A stretch of DNA of 64,000 nucleotides from Neoscytalidium dimidiatum (lineage: Eukaryota; Ascomycota; Dothideomycetes; Botryosphaeriales; Botryosphaeriaceae). The stretch spans positions 1,798,001 through 1,862,000 of the forward strand of contig CM074705.1 in the NCBI GenBank assembly GCA_037367355.1. Reading direction: 5' to 3'. Made by a program: the position numbers and the translations under genes. This document shows, piece after piece, positions 775-47,769 of this stretch. Numbering within the stretch: position 1 is the first letter of the stretch; each line of letters starts with the position of its first letter. The notes below the pieces were generated by a model. That model ran no database searches. It saw nothing but the letters and a program-made list of their open reading frames with translations, and was not told the DNA's origin.

Positions 775-811
775 GCGCCGATGGTGTAATGGTTAGCATT
801 AATGCCTTCCA

Positions 812-840
812 ATCTCGTGGTTCCAACTACAATATTCGTC
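812..840 (+). other. Canonical tRNA intron (position 37/38) of tRNA-Gly
   Basis: This 29-nt insertion lies one base 3' of the TCC anticodon, where nuclear tRNA introns removed by the tRNA splicing endonuclease reside. Its removal gives a seven-base anticodon loop. It has no GT-AG ends, so it is clearly different from the second insertion in the same gene. Confidence 0.8.
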
Positions 841-859
841 AGCATTAGATTCGGGTTCG

Positions 860-911
860 GTAAGTTTCAAAGTTCGAATTTTGAAGAGTGCAAATTCTAA
901 CAAGTATGAAG
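860..911 (+). other. Spliceosomal-type insertion in the T-loop of tRNA-Gly
   Basis: The insertion of 52 nt begins GTAAGT (860-865), has CTAAC at 897-901 and ends AG at 910-911, with 10 nt between branch motif and 3' end. These are the consensus signals of the mRNA introns elsewhere in this window. It lies between T-loop bases TTCG (856-859) and ATT (912-914). Removal restores TTCGATT and box B. It also contains AGTTCGAATT at 871-880, which resembles a box B. That it is spliced is inference. Confidence 0.8.
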
Positions 912-927
912 ATTCCCGATCGGCGCA

Positions 928-46212: not shown

Positions 46213-46230
46213 GGGTCTGTGGTTTAGTGG

Positions 46231-46288
46231 GTAAGTTCCAACCACTAGAACATTTCCGATTAGGAAATACGCTAACCTCCAGTCCCAG
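46231..46288 (+). other. Spliceosomal-type insertion in the D-loop of tRNA-Ala
   Basis: The insertion of 58 nt starts GTAAGT (46231-46236), has CTAAC at 46272-46276 and ends CAG at 46286-46288, so branch motif and 3' end are 12 nt apart. Removal joins AGTGG to TATAATAC and gives a normal D-loop; using the earlier CAG at 46280-46282 would leave six extra bases. It begins directly after box A and leaves box B intact. That it is spliced is inference. Confidence 0.82.
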
Positions 46289-46306
46289 TATAATACTCCC
46301 TTAGCA

Positions 46307-46350
46307 CCTCCGATCCCTGCCCCCAATCAGGGTTAATTCGGGTTAATTAA
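46307..46350 (+). other. Canonical tRNA intron (position 37/38) of tRNA-Ala
   Basis: This 44-nt insertion lies one base 3' of anticodon AGC. It contains an inverted repeat (CCCTG...CAGGG) and a direct repeat GGGTTAATT at 46330-46338 and 46340-46348. It lacks GT-AG ends. Confidence 0.8.
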
Positions 46351-46386
46351 TGGGAGTGGTCCCGGGTTCGATTCCCGGCGGATCCA

Positions 46387-47769
46387 TCTTCGCTGGTTTA
46401 ATTCCAGTATTATTCCCCATTTTTTTGCACTCTTCCGGACATGGTGAAATTATGGTTGAGAATTCTTTTTCGGGAAGTTAGGTTGGTCTGTAAACATCTC
46501 CCATGGCAATTCGATAGCAATACCGGAGCTGTGGAGGACGTCTCATGTTGAACTGTCAAAGAGGTATATGCTTTTAATTATATTGCACATGCGACCCGCA
46601 TTATAGTATTTTGTATTGCCGTGTGCGGGTTGACTTTTCATGTGCCTGAATAGGGTGTAGATAAGATCAGTTCTGAGCATCTGCCTCCAACAGGAGCGAA
46701 TACAAGGGTAGGAATTTTGAGGACAGTCTTGTGCAGGAACTGAGGTGGGTAACTTCTACTAAGCAGCATCCATCGACCAGTGGTCACAGCAATATCGACA
46801 TAGGCAATGTGGTGCGACCAAGAGTTGGTCTAAAATTTGGCAACTCGGATTTACGACGGCGTGCAGGGGTAGTTCGGGACCAATCAGTTCAAAGCGGGAT
46901 AAGTGGACTGTCAAGTCAGTTACATCACACCCTTGCAGCGCCGTCATCTCTTACACTCCTTCGTCGAGTCAGTCTTTTCCCCCTTCCATATTCTCTAGCA
47001 CACCCATTCGAAAAGACGGAGCAAGACTTTGATTAACGGGTTAGCGTTAAATCAACAAGGCTTTCTCTGGACTTGTTGACCCCGCGTAGCTACGTTCAGG
47101 CGGAGTAGTGGCCGAAAAGTCGTGTCATGGCCATGCGAAGCTTTACATGCATTAGAGGTGCCGCATGTGGACAAGGAATATTGACTCGCACTCTCCGGCA
47201 CCGCCGGCCACAACAGTTGCCGGCAACAGAAACCACGGTCCGCTGTCCGCAAGCATCCGGTAAACGCAAACTTGGAACACCCTCTACTTCAGCCGCACAC
47301 CATCGCCCTTCGCTATTGTCATCCTTGTTTCTCTTAAAGTCGATTTCTACAAGCATCAATGCGGCTCTGCAACTGCCATGCCCAGAGGTGCAACAATGCC
47401 TGCTAAAGACAGAGGATCTCCGCAGTGTATGTTCTTGGCAGTTTGCCGATCTGGGTTGGTTGGAAGTTTATTTGTGTATCCGAGCACCACATTTTCTAAT
47501 GATATCCGTCGCCCTGTCCCTGGCTTAACGGCTATCACCGTAGGACCATTGCCGAGGCGGTCACTTAGTGATCAAGGAGAGTCGTATCGTTCGTGGAATT
47601 TGTGACGCCAGATTACCGGCCTAGCACCATAGCTTAATATAGGAAAGCTAATGCCAGGAACCTAAATCAGCCTAGGATGATACGAGTGCTTGATCAATGT
47701 ATATAAGGGAGATCGCTCGTCGTGTCCATCGTAGGTAGTCATTGAGTCACTTTGGCGTGCAGATCCAGA
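46387..47769. other. Intergenic, no gene seen
   Basis: Short frames on both strands without motifs. TATATAAGG at about 47699-47707 lies 63-71 bp before the next gene's ATG and could be its TATA element. Confidence 0.5.

Follow-up and report, generated by a model that had tools for sequence, protein, structure and literature searches.

A tRNA-Ala(AGC) gene at positions 46213-46386 on the plus strand of the window, which is the whole 64,000-nucleotide stretch of DNA that was analysed, is divided into three exons according to its sequence and to the comparison with its paralogues. The first interruption is a 58-nt insert at position 19/20, after G19 in the D-loop, and the second is a separate 44-nt intron at position 37/38. 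With a probability of about 0.85, the 58-nt insert is a U2-type spliceosomal intron in a functional gene. Pol III would transcribe this gene, the spliceosome would take the insert out of the transcript, and the tRNA endonuclease would deal with the 37/38 intron.

Organization of the tRNA-Ala(AGC) gene

The features of the gene and its trailer are the following.

46213..46230, plus strand: exon 1, nucleotides 1-19; from the sequence, and the same in loci L002, L003, L005 and L006
46220-46230, plus strand: A box TGGTTTAGTGG, inside exon 1 and adjoining the D-loop insert
46231..46288, plus strand: D-loop insert, spliceosomal-type intron of 58 nt, GTAAGT...GCTAACC...CAG; precisely the segment that L003 is without, with signals kept in three paralogues
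46272..46276, plus strand: branch-point-like CTAAC, whose second A is at 46275, 13 nt from the 3' end of the insert
46289..46306, plus strand: exon 2 TATAATACTCCCTTAGCA, nucleotides 20-37, with anticodon AGC; from the sequence and the paralogue comparison
46307..46350, plus strand: tRNA intron of 44 nt at the canonical position 37/38, identical in L003; expected substrate of the tRNA-splicing endonuclease
46351..46386, plus strand: exon 3, nucleotides 38-73, with the G3-U70 pair; from the sequence and from ARAGORN on the 72-mer without both inserts
46365-46375, plus strand: B box GGTTCGATTCC, intact, inside exon 3
46393..46407, plus strand: hairpin CTGG-TTTAATT-CCAG in the trailer, similar to a T-arm or B box; in five of the six Ala(AGC) loci
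46420..46426, plus strand: run of seven T, resembling a Pol III terminator; from the sequence

The tRNA begins with G1 at 46213, and G18-G19 of the D-loop are at 46229-46230. The earlier note on this DNA had described a 58-nt insert with GTAAGT, CTAAC and CAG behind the GG of the D-loop, and its borders were correct to the base; the 44-nt intron that it had distinguished at 37/38 lies where it was described and recurs unchanged in L003. Removal of both segments was said to produce an alanine cloverleaf with a G3-U70 pair, and ARAGORN indeed identifies the resulting 72-mer as tRNA-Ala(agc). The cloverleaf, the anticodon AGC, the G3-U70 pair, the A and B boxes, and the T run are the attributes of a predicted functional gene. 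The gene was checked against the usual A-box and B-box consensus and the G3-U70 rule for alanine tRNA. The trailer hairpin, which has a 7-nt loop and is positioned between the 3' end of the tRNA and the T run, is present in the window and in L003, L004, L005 and L006.

Paralogues with and without the D-loop insert

The genome (43.8 Mb in 40 contigs) was searched for paralogues at the DNA level by exon similarity, with no splice signals required. Six Ala(AGC) loci were found, including the window gene (L001). Four of the six (L001, L002, L005, and L006) contain the D-loop insert; L003 is without it, and L004 has no recognizable 5' half. The genome thus does not contain the full set of uninterrupted Ala(AGC) genes that the earlier note had named as speaking against its proposal. 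A purpose-built covariance model recovers all five intact Ala(AGC) genes. In L004 (G000:C9:1011575-1014625) the 3' half and the trailer are intact, and four motifs searched over approximately 1.5 kb upstream did not reveal a 5' half; this locus, a decayed Ala(AGC) copy, is probably a pseudogene.

The locus L003, on contig 4 and unlinked to the window gene, lacks exactly 58 nt of that gene and is otherwise identical to it over 116 nt. It retains the 44-nt anticodon intron, identical to that of the window. A single deletion can turn the window gene into L003 in two placements, one base apart, and one of these has GT-AG borders (GTAAGT...CCCAG). At the same site, the inserts of L001, L002, L005, and L006 have lengths of 58, 58, 56, and 59 nt. 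The isotype, boundaries, and spliceosomal appearance that had been proposed from the window alone hold, and the paralogues from the same genome support them strongly. Since L003 would yield the same 72-nt tRNA, the cell could in principle do without splicing the window gene.

When the mature Ala(AGC) sequences of L001, L002, L003, L005, and L006 are compared in pairs, either 71 or all 72 of their 72 nt are the same. The sole difference among these five intact copies is the change of U20 to C20, which occurs in L005 and L006 only. The similarity between the 150-nt upstream flanks and between the distal downstream flanks of these five loci is near random (alignment z -1.1 to 2.9), and the identity of the exons is therefore not the result of a recent duplication of the whole region. 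Gene conversion confined to the genes could be an alternative source of the exon identity.

Splice signals of the inserts and of host mRNA introns

All four Ala(AGC) inserts start with GTRAGY (GTAAGT, GTAAGC, or GTGAGT) and end with AG, and in each of them the A of a YTAAC motif lies 11-17 nt before that end. The acceptor of L006 is weaker, as its insert ends with AAG. These signals are kept amid diverged interiors. The inserts of L001 and L002 are clear homologues, with identity at 37 of 47 aligned interior positions. When donor and acceptor are set aside, the interiors of L005 (p = 0.29) and L006 (p = 0.15) match that of the window no better than shuffled sequences do, and the comparison of L005 with L006 gives p = 0.047 in the shuffle test.

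A GTNNGY start, an AG end, and a YTRAY motif whose A lies 9-17 nt before that end make up the full signature. Among the 1,278,800 segments of 51-60 nt in the window, 49 carry it. Taken alone, a branch motif within range is weak evidence, as it is also found in about 19-21% of shuffled inserts.

Six mRNA introns of the host are 50-64 nt long, compared to 56-59 nt for the Ala(AGC) inserts. Their donors are GTGAGT, GTGCGT, GTATGC, and GTAAGT, they end with TAG or CAG, and their branch-like motifs are CTAAC, CTGAC, CTGAT, and CTAAG. Three of these introns belong to a gene for eIF2B-epsilon, fitted to the protein of Neofusicoccum parvum, and one to HtrA; the remaining two were read by eye from the coding context of loci L246 and L247. 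The set excludes two uncertain candidates (84 nt in HtrA and 89 nt in eIF2B) and one of 92 nt that is an evident misfit. The eIF2B-epsilon gene is located at approximately 31 kb of the window; its closest named protein is that of Neofusicoccum parvum, with 90% identity over 68% of the query, and the same query has 79% identity over 78% with Diplodia seriata. These matches make a Botryosphaeriales-like ascomycete the likely host. The GT...AG ends, the distance of the branch motif, the host-like length, and the precise presence or absence among paralogues agree with a U2-type assignment of the Ala(AGC) inserts.

Inserts in other tRNA genes

Thirteen inserts of this kind were identified in 12 tRNA genes of 7 anticodons, at sites in the D-loop, at 26/27, or in the T-loop at 57/58. 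All 13 have GTNNGY, an AG end, and YTAAY with its A 9-17 nt from the end. Sites are numbered as in this analysis (15/16, 18/19, 19/20, 26/27, and 57/58). The inserts outside Ala(AGC) are in the following genes, listed together with L249 for comparison.

775..927, plus strand: tRNA-Gly(TCC) gene with a T-loop intron and an anticodon intron; the only copy found by DNA search of the genome
860..911, plus strand: T-loop intron of Gly(TCC) at 57/58, 52 nt, GTAAGT...TTCTAAC...AAG, with B-box-like GTTCGAATT inside at 872-880
G000:C7:504075-504385: Pro(AGG), L245, with three introns, in the D-loop (18/19), the anticodon loop, and the T-loop (57/58)
G000:C2:1250522-1250787: Ala(CGC), L282, with a D-loop insert at 15/16 and a whole T-loop
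C1:3220833-3221113: Ala(CGC), L225, with a T-loop insert and an uninterrupted D-loop
G000:C6:3301717-3301997: Asp(GTC), L237, with a T-loop insert
C5:3361404-3361601: Asp(GTC), L249, without a T-loop insert
G000:C2:1212126-1212391: Arg(CCG), L281, with a 56-nt insert at 26/27, between the D-arm and the anticodon stem, GTACGT...ATCTAAT...CAG
G000:C3:2873523-2873704 and 2888661-2888839: two Pro(CGG) genes, both with T-loop introns

The earlier note had also mentioned a tRNA-Gly case as independent of the alanine gene; it is real, and both genes belong to this wider pattern. T-loop inserts are present in Gly(TCC), Ala(CGC) L225, Pro(CGG) L230 and L231, Asp(GTC) L237, and Pro(AGG) L245. A pattern in which a T-arm runs into a donor, followed by CTAAC, occurs at 12 places (4 in the reversed control), all of which were examined; six are tRNAs, with complete pairing of the acceptor and T-stems, and six are not. 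Two of the latter, L246 and L247, were read as introns of protein genes. The donors of the six T-loop inserts do not provide independent evidence, because the inserts were found or chosen through donor-like patterns. In L245, the D-loop and T-loop introns both bear spliceosomal signals. The inserts of L281 and L282 came up at places matching a B-box pattern, with no splice signals required, and L282 was also found by similarity.

The Asp(GTC) genes L237 and L249 are identical in 107 of 108 bases, including the anticodon intron, and L249 is without exactly the T-loop insert, as are three further Asp copies. Natural copies with and without the insert mean that insert borders are fixed by comparison, and not by consensus alone, at three tRNAs. 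The boundaries in L281 are inferred, with no paralogue for comparison. Genome searches in which only the best candidates were scored did not find an uninterrupted copy of Gly(TCC), Pro(CGG), or Ala(CGC). The two Pro(CGG) genes are approximately 15 kb apart in opposite orientation and are 96% identical.

It is likely that spliceosomal introns have colonized a class of nuclear tRNA genes in this fungus, of at least seven anticodons and with 13 introns identified in 12 genes. For a share of the tRNAs, among them the product of the only Gly(TCC) gene found, the spliceosome would then be needed as well as the tRNA endonuclease; the majority of these introns would be adapted to Pol III, and the three introns of Pro(AGG) would be of two mechanistic kinds.

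Predicted Pol III promoters of the interrupted genes

An intron at the T-loop site interrupts the B box (GGTTCG^ANYCC). All six T-loop introns contain a B box of the TTCGA type, which starts at intron position 12-16. Four of these internal B boxes match GTTCRANYC; that of Gly(TCC) is GTTCGAATT, and that of Pro(AGG) is ATTCGATTC. The motif TTCGA is found in 3.8-5.7% of shuffled interiors per T-loop intron and in none of the seven other inserts. In Ala(AGC) and Pro(AGG), the letters of the A box run on uninterrupted next to the D-loop insert. The D-loop insert of L282, at 15/16, breaks these letters, so respect for the promoter is not universal among the inserts.

We read the substitute B boxes and the unbroken A boxes as probable signs of selection for Pol III transcription. 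Such selection would fit functional genes and not dead copies. Pol III genes of this fungus are not interrupted in general, as the U6 gene in this genome matches over its full length and no intron was found in it.

Proposed maturation of the transcript

In the proposed mechanism, Pol III would read the window gene from the A box, which ends exactly at the 5' border of the intron, and from the intact B box. The nuclear spliceosome would recognize GTAAGT, CTAAC, and CAG and join G19 to U20. The tRNA-splicing endonuclease and ligase would afterwards remove the 44-nt intron at 37/38. That Pol III transcribes the gene, that the spliceosome takes out the insert, and that the two reactions follow each other in this order is what we infer from the gene's sequence. 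The locus L003, which has the anticodon intron and no D-loop intron, fits this order if it originated from partly spliced RNA; gene conversion or ancestral absence of the intron would also do.

Alternative explanations of the D-loop insert

An improbable alternative is that the tRNA-splicing endonuclease excises the D-loop insert through a bulge-helix-bulge fold, which would make the insert an ectopic tRNA-type intron like those of the red alga Cyanidioschyzon merolae or of archaea. D-arm and T-arm introns of that kind occur in tRNA-Ile(UAU) of C. merolae, at 12/13 and 53/54 (PMC9602550). The nucleomorph of Guillardia theta is described as having many ectopic tRNA introns with no defined bulge-helix-bulge (PMC3978253), so the absence of the motif does not exclude the endonuclease. 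In our set, a strict bulge-helix-bulge was found in 0 of 13 inserts, and the 37/38 introns of four Ala(AGC) genes, used as a positive control, fail this definition too, which makes the fold a weak criterion. When the best-scoring bulge-helix-bulge at the GT-AG placement is considered, a 4/4 central helix is formed by 3 of 13 inserts, compared to 5.3% in random sequence. The three are T-loop inserts (Pro L230 and L231, and Asp L237), which favors the endonuclease, whereas none of the four Ala(AGC) inserts has such a helix at the GT-AG placement and one of the four (L005) has it at the other placement. Furthermore, the endonuclease does not need GTAAGT, CTAAC, and AG, yet these are kept while the interior diverges, and the insert is at 19/20 and not at the canonical 37/38.

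The sequence GAA is frequent at the 3' ends of T-loop introns (L230, L231, L237, L245, and window 860-911), and the TTC of the T-loop is a potential pairing partner for it. For L230, L231, and L237 this pairing gives the 4/4 central helix resembling a bulge-helix-bulge. T-stem pairing may have a part in these three T-loop inserts.

It is very improbable that the insert-bearing Ala(AGC) genes are pseudogenes, with L003 as the only functional copy and a splice-like appearance that arose by chance. The absence of the D-loop insert from L003 and the decay of L004 would agree with such a history. However, the exons of the four insert-bearing genes are identical in 71-72 of 72 nt despite flanks of near-random similarity and diverged introns, the splice signals are the parts of the inserts that were kept, and neither the A and B boxes nor the T runs are damaged. 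The lack of an uninterrupted Gly(TCC), Pro(CGG), or Ala(CGC) gene among the best candidates scored also argues against dead copies.

There is hardly any likelihood that the insert is not an intron and is retained in an unusual mature tRNA or as a structured regulatory element. Local hairpins are possible for the insert in the folded precursor, but the near-random interiors of the paralogues and the existence of L003 without exactly the insert contradict a conserved retained structure, and a D-loop with 58 extra nt would part G18-G19 from the rest of the loop. A group I or group II intron was rejected, as 58 nt is too short and Rfam gave no match to such a family in the window at gathering score or in the gene surroundings at E up to 10; an assembly error was rejected in view of independent copies at distinct loci, and chance in view of the rarity of the full signature (49 of 1,278,800 segments), its recurrence in three paralogues, and the existence of L003.

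Detection by gene finders

In the full 64-kb window, ARAGORN with default settings reports 0 genes, and no Rfam match reaches the gathering score. When introns of up to 200 nt are allowed, ARAGORN calls the window Ala(AGC) locus Ser(aga). With the D-loop insert alone removed, it reports Tyr(ata), as it does for the natural L003, because it misplaces the 37/38 intron. The earlier note expected that standard tRNA finders would probably miss or mis-score this gene, which is true of the window copy with the defaults of ARAGORN and Rfam. Such genes are not always missed, since the insert-bearing L005 (36.1 bits) and L006 (36.4 bits) reach the Rfam gathering score, compared to 49.1 bits for L003. 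At this score, Rfam accepts three of ten natural insert-bearing loci (L005, L006, and L281). A miss by Rfam is not specific to inserts, because L249, which is without the T-loop insert, is also missed.

ARAGORN finds no gene in the natural sequences of five loci with T-loop inserts (Gly(TCC), L225, L231, L237, and L245). Once the T-loop insert is cut out, and from L245 the D-loop insert as well, it names them Gly(tcc), Ala(cgc), Pro(cgg), Asp(gtc), and Pro(agg). The Arg(CCG) gene L281 is called Val(cac) in its natural form and Arg(ccg) when the insert is cut out.

Comparison with known systems and significance

Nuclear rRNA genes of ascomycetes hold spliceosomal introns. These resemble the tRNA inserts in being short, of the mRNA type, and located in non-coding genes of filamentous ascomycetes; they differ in that their host genes are transcribed by Pol I and have no tRNA internal promoters.

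The nearest precedent is the U6 gene of fission yeast, which is transcribed by Pol III and holds an mRNA-type intron (PMC10484740). Like the window gene, it combines a spliceosomal-type intron with a short non-coding RNA made by Pol III (PMC10484740). U6 is a spliceosome component, and its intron is thought to have originated from reverse splicing near catalytic bases (PMC10484740). In the present genome, by contrast, the introns interrupt tRNA genes, which belong to seven anticodons and have further introns at 37/38, and the U6 gene is intron-free. Nuclear tRNA genes of C. merolae are alike in having introns in the D- and T-arms besides 37/38, and their D and T introns are supposedly removed ahead of the anticodon intron (PMC9602550). 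The introns of C. merolae and of nucleomorphs differ in that they are discussed as endonuclease substrates with bulge-helix-bulge motifs (PMC4090602, PMC3978253). The sites in tRNA-Ile(UAU) of C. merolae are 12/13 and 53/54, whereas those of the present set are 15/16, 18/19, 19/20, 26/27, and 57/58, with spliceosomal consensus signals.

Among the papers listed in a literature search, judged by title and the opening of the abstract, none describes spliceosomal introns in nuclear tRNA genes. Judged from this search, the novelty lies in ordinary-looking spliceosomal introns in a class of genes for which no precedent was found. Introns of tRNAs and of mRNAs are taught as separate worlds with separate machines. 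If the spliceosomal reading is correct, the internal promoters of Pol III genes do not keep spliceosomal introns from invading these genes and persisting there, translation is directly tied to pre-mRNA splicing, and tRNA annotation tools overlook or misname functional genes. The genes would offer a test of spliceosome action on Pol III transcripts, which presumably have no cap and no poly(A) tail, and the replacement B boxes suggest selection for both transcription and splicing of one molecule. The pairs of genes with and without the insert are a natural set for studies of intron gain or loss.

Pattern searches and tRNA census

The list of tRNA genes of this genome is incomplete; in the Rfam tRNA search, 63 of 1020 candidates were scored. 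Two genome patterns for D-loop introns right after G19 gave 14 matches (16 in the reversed-pattern control) and 53 matches (control 59). All 14 and 50 of the 53 were examined, the remaining three being Ala(AGC) loci already found, and the four Ala(AGC) genes were the only tRNAs. These patterns are blind to introns at 15/16 or 18/19, which occur in L282 and L245.

The B-box pattern had 260 matches and its control 268; most of the matches are therefore due to chance. Among the 100 B-box places listed, 14 were tRNAs already known, and 80 more were examined, which yielded nine tRNAs. A GT-AG insert outside 37/38 is present in 2 of the 23 tRNAs at the B-box places examined (L281 and L282). A T-loop intron is invisible to this pattern, because it splits the B box. 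A further pattern gave 132 matches (control 247); among the 100 listed, the 20 with GTAAGT or GTAAGC were examined and included four tRNAs. Another pattern gave 20 matches at 19 places (control 10), with five tRNAs and six places examined. The intronic B-box pattern GTTCRANYC had five matches (control 1), which are four tRNAs and the place C9:666237.

Outside the fungus, the D-loop-junction patterns matched 85 stretches in bacterial and archaeal genomes and 10 and 7 in viral contigs, all of which were taken as chance. A structural scan of these 102 stretches gave one match, L191, with 6 of 7 acceptor pairs; it spans a long bacterial stretch that was judged to be coding and was rejected as a tRNA. 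In 17 viral loci, the tRNA model found four weak matches, with 15.8-18.3 bits compared to 47.8-49.1 bits for the five Ala(AGC) genes, and three of the four are at the pattern sites in L220, L222, and L224.

The contig G000:C40 has a mitochondrial appearance and contains its tRNAs twice, approximately 176.85 kb apart, which suggests that a circle was assembled twice.
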